Source of the DNA: an uncultured Eubacteriales bacterium
GTDB taxonomy: Bacteria > Bacillota > Clostridia > Christensenellales > Aristaeellaceae
Length of the DNA stretch: 64,000 nucleotides
NCBI GenBank assembly: GCA_902789795.1
Contig: CADAPM010000004.1
Coordinates: forward strand, 186,001-250,000
Direction: 5' to 3'
Below, in pieces: positions 25,995-35,696 of the stretch. A model generated the notes under the pieces. That model was not told the DNA's origin, did no database searches, and worked only from the letters and a program-made list of their open reading frames with translations. Position 1 is the first letter of the stretch. The number at the start of each line of letters is the position of its first letter. The position numbers and the translations under genes are program-made.

Positions 25995-26606
25995 ATGGGA
26001 CTGTTTGACAATCCGCTGGAGAAGGGCCAGAACCTGTCGGACCGGAAAAAGTATATCGACGATTTTGAACTGGTAGAGACGACGGACGAGAAGGGCCGCG
26101 TGCGCAAACGGGCTGTGTACAAGGGCGTATGGACGGTGCTCCGCCCGCCGGTCAAGACGGCGCAGTATAAACTGTGGGGGGCGCTGGGCATGGCGGCGGC
26201 GCTGGCGGTGGTCTATGTGCGGATGCTGCTGCTCACGCACCTGACCAGCGGCCAGCTCCTGGCCATGGTGCCGCTGCTGATCGGCCTGTTCCCGGGCATG
26301 TATCTGCTGATGGGCGCTCTGTCCCTGCCCTTCCGGGGGAGACCCATGCGCCGGGACCAGTATATGCACAGTTTTATCCGGGCGTCGCGGTCCGCCGTGG
26401 CCGTCATCGTCTGCGCGGCGGCCGGACTGATCGCTTCCATTATATATAGGGCGGTGAATGGGGACTGGTCCTTCTTTCAGGAGGACCGGCTGTTCATCAT
26501 CCTGTGCCTGGTGTCGGCGGCGCTGGCCTCCGGCGTGCTGTCGCTGCTCAGGACGGTGGAGGTGGCGGAACGGCCCAATGAAACATACAATAAAAATGCA
26601 ATATAA
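25995..26606 (+). CDS. Four-helix membrane protein of unknown function
   Basis: A 203-residue protein with a charged 55-residue N-terminal cytoplasmic segment and four predicted helices (about residues 58-76, 80-106, 130-150, 163-183). No family motif is recognised. It lies between the divergent GAPDH gene and the Opp operon, with no obvious operon partner. Confidence 0.6.
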   Translation: MGLFDNPLEKGQNLSDRKKYIDDFELVETTDEKGRVRKRAVYKGVWTVLRPPVKTAQYKLWGALGMAAALAVVYVRMLLLTHLTSGQLLAMVPLLIGLFPGMYLLMGALSLPFRGRPMRRDQYMHSFIRASRSAVAVIVCAAAGLIASIIYRAVNGDWSFFQEDRLFIILCLVSAALASGVLSLLRTVEVAERPNETYNKNAI

Positions 26607-26879: not shown

Positions 26880-29087
26880 ATGAAGAAACTGATGGCTCTG
26901 CTCATGACCGTGGTCATGGCGTTCTCAGTGGTCGGCGCTCTCGCGGATGTCGATGCTGCGAACATCGTTGAATCTCCTGAGTTCGACGTGATGACCCTGG
27001 GCAACTACAAGTATGGCGAGGACTACGAGTCCCTGTACGAAAAGGTCGGCAAGGACATCACCATCGCTGATGTGCACGAAGACGAAGAGACCGGCTTCGG
27101 CTATATCACCGTGGACGGCGAAGAGAAGCTGCTTGGTCTGGACTTCCTGACCATGGCTATGGTGTACAACACCACCCCCGCCGGCGACTATGAGACTGAA
27201 GATGACGTCTACGCCGCCTGGTGGAGACTGTACATCACCCGCTGGAATTACCTGCTGCCCGAAGTTCCGCTGTACAGCAACGAGTACTACGATCTGTACA
27301 ACGCTCAGATCAAGGGTGTTCAGGAATATCCCACCAACCCCTTCTGGTCTCCTGCTTCCGCTCTGATCGACTGGTCTTCCGAGAAGGCTGATGACTCCTT
27401 CATCCTGGGCAACACCACCGAGCTGTCCGGCCAGTTCCGTTATGCCACCTTCGGCAAGAGCTCTCCCGCCGCTTCCGATAACGACGTGGAAGGCCTGACC
27501 ACCGGTCTGGAGACCGTCTCCACCACCAAGGAAGGCGGCTTCGAGTGGAACAGCACCGTCGTCGATTCTCATGAAGAGAAACTGAACGAAGACGGCTCTC
27601 TGACCTACACCATCAAGATCAAGGACGACCTGAAGTTCTCCGATGGCAGCCCTGTCACCGCGAAGGACTATCTGGCCTTCTCCATGGCGATGGATTCCCC
27701 CGTTGGCACCGAAGCCTCCGGCCGTGAGCTGAATGCCCAGACCGTGGTCGGCTGGAAGGGCGCCTATCAGAAGTACACCGGCCCCGACAGTGCTGAAGGC
27801 ACCAAGTACTTCGCCGGTCTGCACCTGATCGATGACTACACCTTCTCCGTGACCATCGAAGCGGACTATGCTAACTACTTCTACAAGATCAGCTACGGCG
27901 GATTCTCTGCTAACTACGCTGCTGCCTGGCTGGGCGAAGGCGTTGAGATCAAGGATGACGGCGAAGGCTGCTACCTGTCCGATGAGTTCTATGCCAAGGA
28001 CGCCGACGGCAAGTACATCCAGGCTGCCAAGATCCGCAAGCTCTGCACCGATACCAGCGCTGAGAACTACGCTGCCTATCCGTGGTCCGGCCCCTACTAT
28101 GTCGAGTCCTTCGACAACTCTGACGCCACCGCGACCCTGAAGAAGAACGAATACTTCAAGGGCAACTATGAAGGCGCGCAGCCGAAGATCGGCACCGTCA
28201 TCTACAAGAAGATCGTTTCCGCGACCCAGATGACCGCTTTCACCAGCGGCGAGCTCGATGTTATCGCCGGCATCACCGGCGGCGCTGACACCGATGAGGC
28301 TCTGAAGACTGCTGATGAATCCGAAGGCAAGTATGTCTACACCCACTACAGCCGCGCTGGCTACGGCAAGCTGGGCTTCCGTGCCGACTACGGCCCCGCT
28401 CAGTTCGCTTCTGTCCGTCAGGCCATCGCCCTGTGCATGGACCGCGCTCAGTTCGCGAAGGACTTCACCGGCGGTTACGGCGGCGTCGTGGACGGCCCGT
28501 ACTACACCGGTTCCTGGATGTACAAGGCTGCTGTGGAACAGGGCATGCTGCTGGACAGCTACGCCACCTCTGCTGACGCTGCCATCGACGTCCTCGAGGC
28601 TGACGGCTGGGTCTACAATGCCGACGGCACCGACTACACCGGCGAAGGCGTCCGCTACAAGGCGATCCCCGCTGACAAGATCAACGAGAACGACAAGAAC
28701 TACAAGTCTGTGGACGGCGCTTACAAGACTGAGGAAGTCAATGGCGTGTACCTGATGCCCCTGGTCATCAACTGGTATGGCACTGCTGACAACCCCTTCA
28801 CCGACCTGCTGCAGACCGGTCTGAAGGCCAACGAGAACGTGGCCAAGGCTGGCATGGTGGTTTACAACACCATCGGCGACTTCGGCCCGATGCTGGACGA
28901 ACTGTATCAGGCGGCCGTGTACGGCTTCTATGCCGGCAGCCCGATGTACTGCGCGTTCAACTTCGCCACCGGCTTCAACTCCGCTGCGTATGATTATGCG
29001 TTCAACATGACCATCGATCCTGCGATGTATGACGACTATTCTCAGTACTACATCAAGGACTACGCGGACATCTGCTGGCTGAAGTAA
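26880..29087 (+). CDS. oppA: Oligopeptide ABC transporter substrate-binding protein without lipobox
   Basis: A 735-residue family 5 extracellular solute-binding protein. The signal peptide ends near VVGALA and lacks the cysteine lipobox that anchors most Firmicute binding proteins, so the mature protein may be released or held by another partner. Family features are KIKDDLKFSDGSPVTAKDY, WSGPYYVESFDNSDATATLKKNEYFKGN and SVRQAIALCMDRAQFAKDF. It is about 150 residues longer than typical OppA, with extra aromatic- and acid-rich sequence in the first 170 residues. Codon use is strongly biased (GCT, TCT, GGC), as in highly expressed genes. Strong RBS AAGGAGG. Confidence 0.9.
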   Translation: MKKLMALLMTVVMAFSVVGALADVDAANIVESPEFDVMTLGNYKYGEDYESLYEKVGKDITIADVHEDEETGFGYITVDGEEKLLGLDFLTMAMVYNTTPAGDYETEDDVYAAWWRLYITRWNYLLPEVPLYSNEYYDLYNAQIKGVQEYPTNPFWSPASALIDWSSEKADDSFILGNTTELSGQFRYATFGKSSPAASDNDVEGLTTGLETVSTTKEGGFEWNSTVVDSHEEKLNEDGSLTYTIKIKDDLKFSDGSPVTAKDYLAFSMAMDSPVGTEASGRELNAQTVVGWKGAYQKYTGPDSAEGTKYFAGLHLIDDYTFSVTIEADYANYFYKISYGGFSANYAAAWLGEGVEIKDDGEGCYLSDEFYAKDADGKYIQAAKIRKLCTDTSAENYAAYPWSGPYYVESFDNSDATATLKKNEYFKGNYEGAQPKIGTVIYKKIVSATQMTAFTSGELDVIAGITGGADTDEALKTADESEGKYVYTHYSRAGYGKLGFRADYGPAQFASVRQAIALCMDRAQFAKDFTGGYGGVVDGPYYTGSWMYKAAVEQGMLLDSYATSADAAIDVLEADGWVYNADGTDYTGEGVRYKAIPADKINENDKNYKSVDGAYKTEEVNGVYLMPLVINWYGTADNPFTDLLQTGLKANENVAKAGMVVYNTIGDFGPMLDELYQAAVYGFYAGSPMYCAFNFATGFNSAAYDYAFNMTIDPAMYDDYSQYYIKDYADICWLK

Positions 29088-29221: not shown

Positions 29222-30262
29222 ATGGCAAGATATATTGCAAAAAGGTTAGTATACATGGTCCTCGTGTTCTTCCTGCTAACCTTCATCCTGTTTTCATTGT
29301 ATCAGCTGATGCCCGCGAACCGCGCCTATACGGATGCCAGGGCGGAGATCCAGACCATGAAGCGCCTTTCCGAAGCGGAAAAGGCGACGAAGTTCGAGGA
29401 GCTCTATCTGAAGTACCAGCGCATGTACGGCACGGATACGGATAATACGCTGATCCTCTATTTGCGCTGGCTGGGGTTCTATCCTTTCTATGATGGGCAT
29501 TATTCCGGCATTTTCCAGGGCGATTTCGGATTCTCCTACGACTATAACAAGCCGGTCGTGGAAGTGGTGCCGACGCACATGCGCAACTCGTTCCTGATCG
29601 GTCTGATCACGGAGATCGCGGTATTAGCGATCACTATTCCGTTGGGCATCAAGTGCGCCGTGAAGAAGAACAGCAGGTTTGACCGGTTTACTCAGGTCTT
29701 TACCCTGATCGGTTTTTCTACGCCTTCCTTTATTATTTACATAGTATTCATCGTTCTTTTCTGCTCAATATTGGGCTGGTTCCCGGTCAGCGGTATGAAG
29801 ACGCCGGGCGCCAACTATACGGGCTGGCGGAATGTGCTGGACGTGCTGCATCACGTGACGCTGCCCACCATCTGCCTGACCTTCGGCTCTCTGGCTTCGA
29901 TCACGCGCATCACCCGCGCGTCCATGATCGACGCGCTCAATCTGGACTGTATCCGGACCGCGCGGGCCAAGGGCCTCTCTGAAAAAGTCGTCATTTACAG
30001 CCACGCGTGGCGCAACGCCCTGGTCCCGATGGTGTCCATCATCGTCGGCGGCTTCTTCGGCACCATCAGCGGCGCCATGATCCTTGAGACCATGTTCGGT
30101 TTCAAGGGCATGGGATTGCTGTTCCTGAATGCTACACGCACGGCTGACTATGATATGATCATGTTCCTGGAAGTGATCTACACCTTCCTGGGGCTGTTCT
30201 CCAACCTGGTGACCGACCTTTGCTACGGCATCGTCGATCCCCGCGTACGCATCAGCAAGTAA
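29222..30262 (+). CDS. oppB: Oligopeptide ABC transporter permease OppB
   Basis: A 346-residue inner-membrane permease of the OppB/DppB type with six helices. The first is in IAKRLVYMVLVFFLLTFILF. The cytoplasmic EAA loop that contacts the ATPases reads ALNLDCIRTARAKGLSEK, and the end YGIVDPRVRIS is typical. The ATG at 29222 follows GAAGGAG; an in-frame codon at 29132 falls inside the hairpins. A 70-residue outer segment between helix 1 and helix 2 is normal for this subunit. Confidence 0.92.
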   Translation: MARYIAKRLVYMVLVFFLLTFILFSLYQLMPANRAYTDARAEIQTMKRLSEAEKATKFEELYLKYQRMYGTDTDNTLILYLRWLGFYPFYDGHYSGIFQGDFGFSYDYNKPVVEVVPTHMRNSFLIGLITEIAVLAITIPLGIKCAVKKNSRFDRFTQVFTLIGFSTPSFIIYIVFIVLFCSILGWFPVSGMKTPGANYTGWRNVLDVLHHVTLPTICLTFGSLASITRITRASMIDALNLDCIRTARAKGLSEKVVIYSHAWRNALVPMVSIIVGGFFGTISGAMILETMFGFKGMGLLFLNATRTADYDMIMFLEVIYTFLGLFSNLVTDLCYGIVDPRVRISK

Positions 30263-30274
30263 GGGGGCATGGAA

Positions 30275-32254
30275 ATGGAAAAGAAAAGGGAAAACGTCTT
30301 CCGTACCCTGGCCCGCTGGCTCGTGCGCTGGATCTTCGGCCTTAAGTACGAAGAAAAATGGTTTGGGATCAAAAAAACGGAACCCAAGGAAATCAAATTC
30401 AAGGACGGCGTGCCGGATGACTCCGAGCTGATCGTGAGCCCGGGCCGCCAGATCTTCAACCGCTTCATCGAGCGGAAATTCGCTGTGTTTTCCGTATTCG
30501 TTGTACTGATCATGTTCGCGATCGTGTTCATCGCGCCTCACTTCATGACCAAGTACTACGACGCCTTTACCGAGACCACCCAGAAGGACCTGCCGCCCAC
30601 CATGGACTTTATGAACGTCCCCAAGGAGCTGGCGGGCAATATCAAGATGATCGACAGCTACTCCAGCTTCTCGGTCGGCCTCTCCAATGACGGCAAGGTC
30701 TATGTCTGGGGCATCGGCAAGATCGGCGCTACCGGCATAGATATCAAGCAGATCCCGGACGAGGTCAAGAACGCCAAGATCGCCTATGTGGCGGCCGGCC
30801 AGGACCACATCATCGCCATCGGCGAGGATGGCAAGTTCTACGGCTGGGGCAGCAACCGCTTCGGCCAGTACGCGGTCACAGAAACGACCGCCAGCAACCC
30901 CAACCTGGCTCCCGTGCCGGATGTGGTGCTGAACGGCGAGCTGGATGTCAACCATATCAAGCGTGTCACCTGCGGCTACCAGGCCTCCGCCATCCTGATG
31001 GACGACGGCACCCTGTACATCTGGGGCAACAAGCAGGCTTATGCGAACCTGGATAAGTTCATCGGACGCACCAACATCGTCGATGTGGACTTTACCCTGA
31101 ACTACGTGGTGGGCCTGGACGAGAAACAGACCAGCGTCTATACCGGTACCAAGGGCCTGCATGCCAAGGCCAGGGACCGTATCACCGGCACCAAGACCCA
31201 GGCTATGAAGGATTTCCTGAACGGCCGCAAGATCCAGGAAGTTCGCGCGGCTTCCACCAGCGTCTGCCTGCTGCTGGATGACGGCACCATCGGCTTCACC
31301 GGCGACTTCCCGGCGGACGTGCAGGATGTGCCCGACCTCCCCGAGGGCGAGCAGTTCATTGACATTGAAGCCGGCACCTATCACTTCTCCGGCCTGACCA
31401 ACAAGGGCCATGTGTATTCCTTCGGCGGCGACCATTACCGCCAGGCGGAAGCGCCCAAGGTGGAAGGCGCCAGCAAGCTGTACGCCGGCGCGTTCCAGAG
31501 CTATGCGGTGGACGCCAACGGCAAGCTGCTGAACTCCTGGGGCCTCAAGGGCTACCTGTTCGGCACCGATGACCGCGGCGCGAACATTGCTGAGCGCGTG
31601 GTGGCCGGCGGCCGCATCACCATGACGGTCGGCGCCATCGCCGTTATCATCGAGATCATCATCGGCGTGTCCATCGGCCTGCTGGCCGGCTTCCTGGGCG
31701 GCTGGGTGGATATCTTCCTCATGCGTGTGGCAGAGGTGTTCAGCTCCATCCCGCTGTACCCCTTCATGCTGATCCTGAGCTCTCTGCTGGCGCAGGTCTC
31801 CATGACCACGGACCAGCGTCTGTACATGATCATGGTCATCCTGGGCATCCTGGGCTGGCCCGGCTTCGCCTACATCACCCGTGCCCAGGTGCTAGTGGCC
31901 CGCGAGAGCGAGTACGTCACCGCGGCCCAGGCCATGGGCGTGGGCACCTGGCGCATCGCCTACAAGCATATCCTGCCCAACATCGTATCCGTCATTCTGG
32001 TCAATATGACCCTGAGCTTTGCCGCGTCCATGCAGACGGAGACTTCCCTCTCCTTCCTGGGCTTCGGCGTCAACTATCCGCAGCCCAGCTGGGGCAATAT
32101 GCTGTCCCGCGCCAGCAACGCCGTCGCGGCCATCAACTTCCCCTGGCAGTGGATCTTTACTTCGATCATCCTGATCATCACGACCGTGTGTATCAACACC
32201 ATCGGCGATACGCTGCGCGACGTCATGGACCCGAAGTCCACCAACGACAAGTAA
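30275..32254 (+). CDS. oppC: OppC permease with an inserted RCC1-type beta-propeller
   Basis: A 659-residue permease, more than twice the usual OppC size. Residues about 68-90 form membrane helix 1. The normal OppC motif after it (LFGTDDRGANIAERVVAGGRI) comes only near residue 427, and helices 2-6 with the EAA loop (AAQAMGVGTWRIAYKHILP) follow normally. The intervening 300 or so residues hold seven RCC1-like units, recognised from repeats such as FSVGLSNDGKVYVWG, HIIAIGEDGKFYGWG, SAILMDDGTLYIWG and HFSGLTNKGHVYSFGG. This is a full propeller placed in the outer loop where OppA docks. The second ATG (30275) has better spacing to AAGGGGG than the first (30269). Confidence 0.92.
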   Translation: MEKKRENVFRTLARWLVRWIFGLKYEEKWFGIKKTEPKEIKFKDGVPDDSELIVSPGRQIFNRFIERKFAVFSVFVVLIMFAIVFIAPHFMTKYYDAFTETTQKDLPPTMDFMNVPKELAGNIKMIDSYSSFSVGLSNDGKVYVWGIGKIGATGIDIKQIPDEVKNAKIAYVAAGQDHIIAIGEDGKFYGWGSNRFGQYAVTETTASNPNLAPVPDVVLNGELDVNHIKRVTCGYQASAILMDDGTLYIWGNKQAYANLDKFIGRTNIVDVDFTLNYVVGLDEKQTSVYTGTKGLHAKARDRITGTKTQAMKDFLNGRKIQEVRAASTSVCLLLDDGTIGFTGDFPADVQDVPDLPEGEQFIDIEAGTYHFSGLTNKGHVYSFGGDHYRQAEAPKVEGASKLYAGAFQSYAVDANGKLLNSWGLKGYLFGTDDRGANIAERVVAGGRITMTVGAIAVIIEIIIGVSIGLLAGFLGGWVDIFLMRVAEVFSSIPLYPFMLILSSLLAQVSMTTDQRLYMIMVILGILGWPGFAYITRAQVLVARESEYVTAAQAMGVGTWRIAYKHILPNIVSVILVNMTLSFAASMQTETSLSFLGFGVNYPQPSWGNMLSRASNAVAAINFPWQWIFTSIILIITTVCINTIGDTLRDVMDPKSTNDK

Positions 32255-32269
32255 GGAGGGAATTGAAGA

Positions 32270-33283
32270 ATGCCTTTGCTCGAAGTTAAAAACCTTCATA
32301 CCTTCTTTACGACCAAGAAAGGTATCGTCAAGGCCGTCAACGACGTATCCTACAGCCTGGAAGCCGGCAAGACCATCGGCATCGTAGGCGAGAGCGGCTC
32401 CGGCAAGTCCGTGTCCGCCATGAGTATCCTGCAGCTGCTGGACGGCAACGGCTACATCGAGAGCGGCGAGATCCTGCTGGAAGGCCGCGACCTGACCAAG
32501 CTCTCCCTGAAAGAGATGAACCATATCCGCGGCAACGATATCTCCGTCATCTTCCAGGAGCCCATGACCAGCCTGAACCCCGTGTTCTCCGTGGATCGCC
32601 AGCTCTCCGAGCCCTTCATGATCCACCAGGGCATGAATAAGAAACAAGCCCATGAGCACGCCCTGCAGATGCTGTACGATGTGCAGATCCCGAACCCGGA
32701 GGTCGTCATCAAGCAGTATCCGCACCAGCTGTCCGGCGGTATGCGCCAGCGCGTCATGATCGCCATGGCCCTGGCCTGCAAGCCCAAGATCCTGATCGCG
32801 GACGAGCCCACCACGGCCCTGGACGTGACCATCCAGGCCCAGATCCTGAAGCTGATGAACGACCTGAAGGAAACGACCGGTACGGCCATCATCTTCATCA
32901 CCCACGACCTGGGCGTCATCAACGAGATGGCGGACGACGTGGCCGTCATGTACTGCGGCCAGGTGGTCGAGCAGGCGCCCGCGGAGGTCATCTTCCGCAA
33001 CTGCACCGAAAGCCATCCCTACACCGAGGGCCTGATGCTGTCCATCCCGCGCCTCGAGATCGAGAGCGACCGTCTGGAGCCCATCCCCGGCGTCGTGCCG
33101 CACCCGCTGGCCCTGCCCAAGGGCTGCAAGTTCGGCCCCCGCTGCAAGTACTGCACGCAGAAGTGCATCGAGCAGGAGCCGCCGCTGCAGAAGATCAGCG
33201 AGAACCAGGCTGTGAGATGCTTCTATCCCAACAAGGAGGAACGGAACAGTGCCGAGCACAAAAAAATTACTGTCCATTACTAA
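32270..33283 (+). CDS. oppD: Oligopeptide ABC transporter ATPase OppD
   Basis: A 337-residue ATPase of normal length. Walker A GESGSGKSVSAM, Q-loop IFQEPMTSLNP, signature LSGGMRQRVMIAMALACK and Walker B ILIADEPTTALDVT are all present. The C-terminal cysteine-rich segment (CKFGPRCKYCTQKC) is the iron-sulfur or zinc site typical of Opp/Dpp ATPases. RBS GGAGGG. The 3' end overlaps oppF by 35 bases in another frame. Confidence 0.95.
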   Translation: MPLLEVKNLHTFFTTKKGIVKAVNDVSYSLEAGKTIGIVGESGSGKSVSAMSILQLLDGNGYIESGEILLEGRDLTKLSLKEMNHIRGNDISVIFQEPMTSLNPVFSVDRQLSEPFMIHQGMNKKQAHEHALQMLYDVQIPNPEVVIKQYPHQLSGGMRQRVMIAMALACKPKILIADEPTTALDVTIQAQILKLMNDLKETTGTAIIFITHDLGVINEMADDVAVMYCGQVVEQAPAEVIFRNCTESHPYTEGLMLSIPRLEIESDRLEPIPGVVPHPLALPKGCKFGPRCKYCTQKCIEQEPPLQKISENQAVRCFYPNKEERNSAEHKKITVHY

Positions 33284-34853
33284 TCTTAAAAAGTACTTTC
33301 CGGTCGCCAAATCCTCCATTTTCCAGAAGAACAGGCTGTATGTCCGGGCGAATGAGAACATCTCCATCGACATCTATGAGGGCGAGACCCTGGGTGTCGT
33401 AGGCGAGTCCGGCTGCGGCAAGTCCACCCTGGGCCGCGTGCTGCTGCAGCTGTATCCGCAGACGGCGGGCTGCACCCTGTACTACGGTATGACCCTGGAC
33501 GAGCTGACCCCCAGCTACGTCTATGACACCATCAAGCATGAAAAGAAATACCGCCAGAAGCTGGCCAAGGCCTCCGCGAAGGCCCGCGACCTGGAAAAGC
33601 GGGTCGAGGCCGCCGGCGGCGAGGACGGCGCGGATTTCTATCTGCTGCAGGATTGCAACATCGCCCAGTGCGACGAGCAGACCAACCTGAGCAATATCGT
33701 GAAAATCCTGGGCGGCTTCTATGCCAAGGACGATGCCGAGGGCATGAACCTGCTGATGGGCATCTACCAGGAAAACAAAAAGCGCAACAAGCTGGTCGGG
33801 AAGCGCAAGAAGCAGCAGGCCAACTTCGACCACTTTGAGCACGAGGCCAACACGGCGGAAGCCGGCAAGGCGACCTCCGCTGCAAATAAGCGCGATAAGG
33901 CTGCCGCCCAGCTCCAGAAGCTCAACAGCGCGATCGAGGTCCATGACAAGGCCATCGCCTCCCTCCAGGACAAGCTGGCGGCTGTCAAGGCCAAGTACCA
34001 GGGTGACGCCGAGTTTGAAAAGTACGAGGCAATGCTGGACAACGGCATCGACCTGGCGCGCCTGACCACCGATGAGATGCGCGACCTGCGCAAGGACCTG
34101 CAGATCATCTTCCAGGATCCCTATTCCAGCCTGAACCCGCGCTTCACCGTGGGTCAGATCATCGAGGAAGGCCTGGTCACCCACCACTTCTTCAAGCACG
34201 GCTCCGCCAAGCTGCGCGCCTACATCGTGGATACGATGGAAAAGTGCGGCCTGCAGGAGTACATGCTCCACCGCTATCCGCACCAGTTCTCCGGCGGCCA
34301 GCGCCAGCGCATCTGCATCGCGCGCGCCCTGGCGGTGCAGCCCAAGTTCGTGGTCTGCGACGAGTGCGTGTCCGCTCTGGACGTGTCCATCCAGTCCCAG
34401 ATCATCAACCTGCTGCAGGAGCTCAAGGAAAAGCAGCACCTGACCTACATGTTCATCTCCCATGACCTGTCGGTCGTCAAGTTCATCTCCGACCGCATCG
34501 CCGTCATGTATCTTGGCAGCGTTGTGGAGCTGGCGGATAAGAACACCATCTTCAACGATCCCCGCCATCCCTACACGGTGGCGCTGCTCTCCTCCATCCC
34601 GACCACGGAGGCCAACTCCGCGGACAAGGAGCGCATCATCCTGGAGGGCAACATCCCCAGCCCCGTGAACCCGCCGGCCGGCTGCAAGTTCTGCACCCGC
34701 TGCTACATGGCCACGGACAAGTGCCGCCGCGTGGAGCCGCCGCTGGTGGAGATCGCACCCAACCACTTCTGTGCCTGCCACTATCCGGAGCGCAAGCTGG
34801 ATGAGAACAAGAACTTCCTGTTCGAGGTCAAGACGACCAAGACGGAGGCCTGA
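33249..34853 (+). CDS. oppF: Oligopeptide ABC transporter ATPase OppF with a long helical insertion
   Basis: A 534-residue ATPase about 200 residues longer than usual. Walker A GESGCGKSTLGRVLLQLYP lies at residues 52-70. The Q-loop IIFQDPYSSLNPR comes only near 287, instead of about 40 residues after Walker A. The extra segment (about 85-275) is rich in Lys, Ala, Glu and Gln with heptad-like patterning (YRQKLAKASAKARDLEKRVE; QLQKLNSAIEVHDKAIASLQ), suggesting an antiparallel coiled coil. Signature FSGGQRQRICIARAL, a Walker B with Cys-Glu (FVVCDECVSALDVS) in place of the usual Asp-Glu-Pro order, and the C-terminal cysteines follow. GTG start behind AAGGAGGA. Confidence 0.92.
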   Translation: MPSTKKLLSITNLKKYFPVAKSSIFQKNRLYVRANENISIDIYEGETLGVVGESGCGKSTLGRVLLQLYPQTAGCTLYYGMTLDELTPSYVYDTIKHEKKYRQKLAKASAKARDLEKRVEAAGGEDGADFYLLQDCNIAQCDEQTNLSNIVKILGGFYAKDDAEGMNLLMGIYQENKKRNKLVGKRKKQQANFDHFEHEANTAEAGKATSAANKRDKAAAQLQKLNSAIEVHDKAIASLQDKLAAVKAKYQGDAEFEKYEAMLDNGIDLARLTTDEMRDLRKDLQIIFQDPYSSLNPRFTVGQIIEEGLVTHHFFKHGSAKLRAYIVDTMEKCGLQEYMLHRYPHQFSGGQRQRICIARALAVQPKFVVCDECVSALDVSIQSQIINLLQELKEKQHLTYMFISHDLSVVKFISDRIAVMYLGSVVELADKNTIFNDPRHPYTVALLSSIPTTEANSADKERIILEGNIPSPVNPPAGCKFCTRCYMATDKCRRVEPPLVEIAPNHFCACHYPERKLDENKNFLFEVKTTKTEA

Positions 34854-35087: not shown

Positions 35088-35696
35088 TCAGGTGTCTTTC
35101 GCGATGGCTCCGATGGCCGCTATCACGCCCTTCAGGATGTCCTCGCCGGACAGGCTGGGGGCGTTTTGCTTGCCGACGGTCTGCTCGTGCTGATACGGCA
35201 CGTGCATGAATCCGGCGCGGATGCGCGGCGCTTCCCGGGCGCACCAGCTGAGCAGGCCGTACATCAGGTGGTTGCACACGAAGGTGCCGGCGGTATAGGA
35301 CAGGCTGGCCGGAACGCCGGCGTCCCGGATGCTCTGCACCATGGCCTTGACCGGCAGCGTCGTGAAGAAAGCGGCGGGCCCGTCCGGTTCGATGGGCTGA
35401 TCCGTAGGCTGCTGCCCGGCGTTGTCCGGAATGCGCGCGTCGTCCAGGTTGATGGCGACCCGCTCCGGCGTGATGGCCGCGCGTCCGCCTGCCTGGCCGA
35501 CGCAGAGGACGGCGTCGGGCCGCTCGCGCTGGACCGCCTCGATCAGCGGCGGCAGACAGCCGTCAAAGGTCACGGGCAGCCGCAGCCGGAGGATCTGCGC
35601 GCCGCCGATCTCGTCGGGGAAGGCGCAGACGGCCTCCCAGGCGGGGTTGACAGTCTCGCCGCCGAAGGGCTCAAAGCCGGTCACGAGGATCTTCAT
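35088..35696 (-). CDS. pcp: Pyroglutamyl peptidase I
   Basis: A 202-residue cysteine peptidase of family C15 that removes N-terminal pyroglutamate from peptides in the cytoplasm. The start KILVTGFEPFGGETVNP is diagnostic. The catalytic glutamate lies in PERVAINLDDARIPDN and the cysteine in YTAGTFVCNHLMYG. The last catalytic residue (His) is in GFMHVPYQHEQ. Its position next to a peptide importer suggests a shared role in peptide use, although it is convergently transcribed. Confidence 0.94.
   Translation of the reverse strand: MKILVTGFEPFGGETVNPAWEAVCAFPDEIGGAQILRLRLPVTFDGCLPPLIEAVQRERPDAVLCVGQAGGRAAITPERVAINLDDARIPDNAGQQPTDQPIEPDGPAAFFTTLPVKAMVQSIRDAGVPASLSYTAGTFVCNHLMYGLLSWCAREAPRIRAGFMHVPYQHEQTVGKQNAPSLSGEDILKGVIAAIGAIAKDT

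Follow-up and report, generated by a model that had tools for sequence, protein, structure and literature searches.

The window, by which we mean the whole 64,000-nucleotide stretch of DNA analysed here, encodes a predicted peptide importer of the OppABCDF type whose OppC permease appears to carry a seven-bladed propeller of the RCC1/BLIP-II type between membrane helix 1 and the GTDxxG motif. The architecture is conserved among relatives in many genomes, and the OppF ATPase of the same operons has a long insert of its own. A propeller ectodomain on an otherwise Opp/Dpp-kind importer appears to be undescribed in the open-access PMC literature, where no paper was found that joins RCC1 with OppC, oligopeptide permease, BPD_transp_1 or ABC transporter permease; an earlier reading of this DNA, made from the sequence only, had likewise known of no described transporter of this layout. 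In the part of PMC9218822 that was available, the words "transporter" and "permease" do not occur. In this conserved lineage a fold of the binding type would form part of the permease at the site of the binding protein, together with an ATPase insert on the matching half, which opens the question of how an outside domain on one importer half controls binding-protein docking or signalling.

The operon and the propeller permease

By gene content, the importer belongs to the Opp/Dpp kind and is predicted to be a type I ABC importer. One operon encodes an SBP_bac_5 binding protein, two BPD_transp_1 permeases and two oligo_HPY ATPases (Pfam), the same families as in the solved OppABCD(F)/DppABCD(F) systems of E. 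coli and M. tuberculosis (8z21, 8z1v, 8j5q, 8wd9). This gene set recurs in related loci as far as their contigs extend. The operon and the parts of OppC are as follows.

26880..29087, + strand: OppA substrate-binding protein, 735 aa, predicted to be circularly permuted, without lipobox (Pfam SBP_bac_5, model)
29222..30262, + strand: OppB permease, 346 aa (Pfam)
30269..32254, + strand: OppC permease with RCC1 ectodomain, 661 aa (open frame and Pfam)
30437..30598, + strand: OppC_N segment including TM1, OppC residues 57-110 (Pfam OppC_N, 5.7e-8; model helix 70-92)
30599..31543, + strand: RCC1/BLIP-II-type propeller, residues 111-425 (Pfam; DSSP of model; Foldseek)
30641-30712, + strand: blade 1, residues 125-148 (DSSP of model)
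30779-30850, + strand: blade 2, residues 171-194 (DSSP of model)
30956-31030, + strand: blade 3, residues 230-254 (DSSP of model)
31076-31174, + strand: blade 4, residues 270-302 (DSSP of model)
31232-31303, + strand: blade 5, residues 322-345 (DSSP of model)
31355-31429, + strand: blade 6, residues 363-387 (DSSP of model)
31475-31543, + strand: blade 7, residues 403-425 (DSSP of model)
31544..31588, + strand: junction LKGYLFGTDDRGANI, from the last blade into the GTDxxG motif (sequence and alignments)
31664..32236, + strand: BPD_transp_1 permease core, residues 466-656 (Pfam, 7.7e-32)
32270..33283, + strand: OppD ATPase, 337 aa (Pfam)
33249..34853, + strand: OppF ATPase, 534 aa (Pfam)

Directly past the operon, a pyroglutamyl peptidase gene (Peptidase_C15, 4.5e-78) lies on the minus strand at 35091-35696, and a Peptidase_M3 gene was seen upstream of the Butyrivibrio operon.

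The OppC frame (30269-32254) is uninterrupted over its 661 aa; the start at 30275 given in the sequence-only reading is the second Met of MEMEKK. Along it Pfam places OppC_N, RCC1 repeats and BPD_transp_1 in this order, with E-values that exclude chance matches. RCC1_2 was matched in 4 stretches (1e-25, 89.2 bits against a cut-off of 22) and RCC1 in 2 (3.8e-11, 43.8 bits, cut-off 21.7), whereas the WD40_RLD match (2.3e-33) lies under its curated cut-off (116 vs 150 bits). OppC and DppC are the nearest solved permeases by sequence, in agreement with the earlier assignment to OppC. The permease half aligns to solved Opp/Dpp C subunits both in sequence (E 2e-35 to 3e-44) and as a fold, but these subunits have 287-302 residues and no propeller. 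No named NCBIfam OppC equivalog cut-off was passed (best Opp4C, 259.5 bits against a cut-off of 350); judged by these scores, the protein is related to the named NCBIfam OppC subfamilies and stands outside them.

The RCC1 domain spans about 315 residues between membrane helix 1 and GTDxxG and holds seven strand triplets, where the sequence-only reading had counted seven RCC1 units in about 300 residues. In an AlphaFold model of OppC alone, built from an alignment of 66 sequences, residues 125-425 form seven three-stranded blades with high confidence, blade 4 being the least regular. The ten-residue mean pLDDT is 84-96 over residues 111-430, and the whole model has a mean pLDDT of 83.1 and a pTM of 0.73. 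Searched with Foldseek, the model returned Opp/DppC chains first, followed by BLIP-II, UVR8, RPGR and HERC. BLIP-II, which we take to have seven blades, is the best solved propeller match (TMt 0.70-0.74, rmsd 5.1-5.6), and UVR8 is the nearest solved propeller by sequence. The blade count and the Foldseek matches to BLIP-II suggest that the ring is closed. The propeller expected earlier is supported at the level of structure prediction. BLIP-II (3qi0, 1jtd) and the RCC1 superfamily share with the OppC propeller RCC1 repeats with the WG/DG pattern, but none of the solved RCC1/BLIP-II relatives returned by the sequence and Foldseek searches is a membrane permease.

Strand 3 of blade 7 (LLNSWG) lies six residues from GTD, and the last unit runs, as had been noticed, into the permease motif itself. 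So short a distance between the last strand and GTD makes a stiff mount of the propeller probable. The TM1-TM2 loop of OppC lies on the outer side in the standard OppC topology, with which the earlier claim of an outward-facing loop is consistent, and from the strand order the face bearing the strand 1-2 loops and the strand 3 ends would be turned to the membrane. Strand 1-2 loops are modestly more conserved than the opposite turns (0.81 vs 0.73, averages over seven blades). Y258 and N260 are invariant across 66 rows of type I, the clade that contains the window. The dN/dS ratios indicate purifying selection on the propeller (0.05-0.23, vs 0.035-0.14 in the permease half; 12 pairs), and the propeller values are about 1.4 to 3 times those of the permease half, all of them rough given high dS.

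Distribution and origin of the propeller

With the propeller as query, 113 of the 300 same-family genomes searched gave some RCC1 match (E <= 0.001). In at least 53 of the family's genomes, counting the window's own, frames of 552-694 aa were matched over almost the full query length. Wider scans used a 20-row profile including the GTD junction (E <= 1e-20) on samples that overlap. The order yielded matches in 34 of 396 genomes, every one of them extending to the junction; the class in 20 of 391, with 17 reaching the junction; and the phylum in 16 of 398, with 14 reaching it. The window's own genome is counted in the class and phylum figures. In a one-genome-per-species collection 269 stretches matched, 263 of which encode a relative of the query. 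The search for other permeases combining BPD_transp_1 and RCC1 that the sequence-only reading had proposed returned many candidates. The layout is a shared architecture, with one origin in the sample, and not a one-off.

All matches among the best 80 of the 263 candidates extend as far as the query's GTD end. The permease frame of L125 is 469 residues long, and those of the other 79 loci have 600 or more; two loci, L117 and L121, come from one genome. Most of these 80 records are MAGs from Clostridia of gut and rumen; Acetatifactor muris DSM 23669 and Butyrivibrio sp. AE2015 are the two named strains. The window genome has one propeller OppC and four other OppC-type permeases without a propeller. 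A single odd fusion, a frameshift or an assembly error was rejected as an explanation, since relatives in many genomes share the architecture.

The propeller permeases include type I and type II, which share about 37-40% identity over their full length. In an IQ-TREE tree of the permease half (86 rows), all 56 propeller rows, partly picked for having the propeller and 55 of them distinct (L083 and L198 are the same gene), fall on one side of one branch (100/99; 200/200 bootstrap trees). The tree used 10 of the 28 relatives in alignment A1 and left out the non-fusion RCC1 matches L094-L096, L109 and L110 and the duplicates L058, L059, L061 and L063; several plain rows sit on long branches, and the fork holding the sister group is weakly supported (92/90) and is drawn open. 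As judged from these permease sequences, the propeller OppC has one origin in the sampled tree. Several independent gains are not supported, as the permease-only tree needs one change.

Searches with the permease alone ignore the propeller and provide a check that is free of the tree's row choice. Among 200 genomes of the order, 17 of 17 non-window matches with at least 46% identity are propeller carriers, leaving aside G019 (57% permease identity), a contig-edge fragment unreadable for the propeller, and no match at or below 43% identity coincides with a propeller-profile match. Among 60 genomes of the class, all three non-window matches above 50% identity carry the propeller. No propeller loss was seen among complete clade members in these searches of 200 order and 60 class genomes.

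The next-relative OppCs L201-L203, L205 and L206 have other long insertions, of about 140-290 residues, at the same TM1-TM2 site. The loops of L201, L203, L205 and L206 gave no Pfam match, and the propeller profile scores at most 15 bits in all five permeases and in control loci. Outside domains may thus recur at the TM1-TM2 loop of OppC.

The binding protein and the second ATPase

The order of segments within OppA differs between the two types; the segment concerned in the window is the following.

27138..27368, + strand: OppA residues 87-163, C-terminal segment of normal-order relatives (sequence matches)

These residues match the C-terminal end of type II OppAs (seven OppAs, E 5e-9 to 3e-12), and residues 166-716 match their N-terminal main part. 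OppA is, according to these matches, circularly permuted in type I, the subclade of the window. The permuted order was found in L227-L229 and in the nine scorable type I loci of L038-L049, the normal order in 7 type II loci and in 14 of 14 distant loci (L230-L243); L056 was unscored, no OppA was in reach in L041, L046 and L244, and L045 is incomplete. A single event at the base of the type I clade (14 rows, 100/99), some members of which are unscored, would account for this pattern. By the same matches, the window OppA departs from the normal N-to-C order of the cluster C (SBP_bac_5) fold. Its model (pLDDT 85.3) matches cluster C-type binding proteins, which by itself is no proof of permutation. 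According to the available part of PMC4990184, the ABC-importer binding protein TpMglB-2 is likewise circularly permuted; it is a cluster B sugar binder, whereas a family-5 (peptide-type) binder is concerned here. The window OppA would add a further natural case of such permutation.

No lipobox was found in the window OppA by pattern match. This pattern, a loose one, is present in the OppAs of 49 of 67 type I relatives (43 of 62 in a first version of the count; L136 and L139 also match with another start), in 16 of 17 OppAs of the more distant loci L227-L243, and in none of the seven scored type II OppAs of the window's own family. The missing lipobox looks like a trait of the window's family, not of the propeller. 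That the propeller exists because OppA lacks a lipid anchor is not supported, since most OppAs of type I relatives and of L227-L243 match the pattern, and neither is the special tie between the two that the sequence-only reading had drawn. A survey of the six family-5 binding proteins of the window genome (L191-L196) found three, the window OppA included, without a lipobox. Of the five others, L191-L193 match the pattern, with a Cys ambiguously placed within the hydrophobic core or directly behind it, and the remaining two lack a match; genome-wide lipobox loss is not shown, given that three of the five match the loose pattern.

The second ATPase of the operon is set apart by one stretch.

33486..34103, + strand: OppF residues 80-285, stretch with a long insert between Walker A (52) and the Q-loop (287)

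Walker A and the Q-loop of OppF are 195-240 residues apart in 38 of 38 propeller loci examined, a spacing that gives an insert length of about 140-185 residues. The same spacing is 54 in OppD of propeller operons (35 of 36 readable loci; 86 in L228) and 47-53 in OppF-like ATPases of non-propeller loci, where the insert was found in 0 of 12 readable cases (13 control operons, four from the window genome and nine from other genomes, with one unreadable; absence of the propeller was checked by profile). The insert is homologous and helix-like across 24 aligned sequences and reads as a putative helical hairpin. Used alone as query, it identified 4 of the 60 class genomes, the window's own among them, and these are precisely the ones that have the propeller permease. 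Of 190 order genomes it identified 17, each of which is on the permease-only list of carriers, with G019 as the contig-edge case. The carriers G483 and G485, searched separately, both have it beside the propeller gene. In the genomes examined, the OppF insert was thus seen only with a propeller permease, and shared descent is enough to explain this joint presence. According to the available part of PMC12136057, DppC pairs with DppF in a solved E. coli relative, so the propeller and the OppF insert should sit on one transporter half, and the two may be functionally linked.

Possible roles of the propeller

The binding partner of the propeller, its role in transport and any coupling to OppF are inferred. 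The reading that we favour, with modest confidence and as quite possible though short of probable, is a docking and capture platform for OppA on the OppC-OppF half; it is placed ahead of the alternatives below on the stiff-mount geometry, with the selection and co-evolution results considered. The OppC-OppF pair would bear one extra module outside the membrane and one inside. On the outside, the propeller would take the place of the short TM1-TM2 loop of OppC, hold OppA over the translocation entrance and help to stop released peptide from escaping.

RCC1/BLIP-II-type propellers frequently bind proteins, which counts for docking, as do the retention of the propeller in the clade and its correlation with OppA in type I. 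A functional analogy, and only that, may be drawn with MalF-P2, which has a different fold, sits in a different loop and belongs to a sugar importer, that for maltose. Like the propeller, MalF-P2 is a large periplasmic region of a transmembrane subunit, and it contacts the binding protein, reportedly interacting with MalE over the whole cycle (title of a reference in PMC3150292). The site of the propeller also counts for docking, being the periplasmic TM1-TM2 region of the C subunit on the side capped by DppA, which covers DppB and DppC in the available part of PMC12136057. The same part describes the DppB scoop, a periplasmic TM1-TM2 element that acts on the binding protein once it has docked and has a proposed capture-type role like that suggested here, but consists of two short helices on the B subunit, whereas the propeller is on C (PMC12136057).

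Co-evolution was assessed by partial correlation of pairwise distances with bootstrap, in a type I set of 62 operons plus the window and in a type II set of 34 of 39 operons, the 5 incomplete ones having been dropped. In type I the highest partial correlation of the propeller is with OppA (0.40, bootstrap 0.27-0.50), ahead of OppD (0.23), the permease half (0.19), OppB (0.17) and OppF (-0.07). The signal did not replicate in type II, where propeller-OppA (0.12, bootstrap -0.03 to 0.46) ranks below both propeller-OppF (0.42, bootstrap 0.03-0.60) and propeller-permease (0.36). OppB-permease (0.80 in type I) and OppD-OppF (0.75) behave as partners and are high in both sets. The expected contact OppA-OppB scored 0.57 in type II and only 0.04 in type I, because of which the test is not reliable; with this failure and the missing type II signal, the co-evolution with OppA does not amount to proof of docking. 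Counted against docking are the lack of replication, the modest loop conservation and the consideration that OppA, which appears lipid-anchored in most type I relatives, needs no second tether.

The missing type II signal counts for a somewhat unlikely alternative, in which the propeller anchors or collects a partner other than OppA (cell-wall material, whether glycan or peptide, a peptidase on the surface or some other secreted protein) and so places the importer where peptides are released. BLIP-II is itself a secreted binder of another protein, according to the available part of PMC9218822, and peptidase genes lie near two operons (pyroglutamyl peptidase, 35091-35696; Peptidase_M3, Butyrivibrio). 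Against such a partner stand the propeller-OppA correlation in type I and a small survey of 10 proteins from the window and 3 loci, in which no shared neighbour gene was seen.

The type II correlation of the propeller with OppF would suit a sensing transporter (transceptor), in which the propeller reads an outside ligand or the state of OppA and the coiled OppF insert signals to a cytosolic partner. The insert and the propeller occur in the same genomes and should share one half by the DppC-DppF pairing noted above, but their joint presence is explained by shared descent alone, the propeller-OppF value is negative in type I, and we know of no cytosolic partner of the insert; we consider this role improbable. 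The same low probability applies to the wider proposal of a distinct, transceptor-type subclass of peptide importers, with a receptor-like propeller on OppC outside, a coiled signalling hairpin on OppF inside and a later permutation of OppA that re-sited its anchor relative to the propeller. That the propeller merely stabilises OppC or shields the entrance, with nothing specific bound, is more doubtful still: related OppCs bear other long loops at a site that evidently tolerates insertions and dN/dS is higher in the propeller than in the permease half, but no loss was seen among complete clade members in the permease-only searches and some residues, Y258 and N260 among them, do not vary in type I.

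Adjoining the operon, a 203-aa hydrophobic protein is encoded at 25995-26606. It has no Pfam match above cut-off, and a relative of it is found at most 7 kb from OppC, on either side, in 26 of the 80 related loci.
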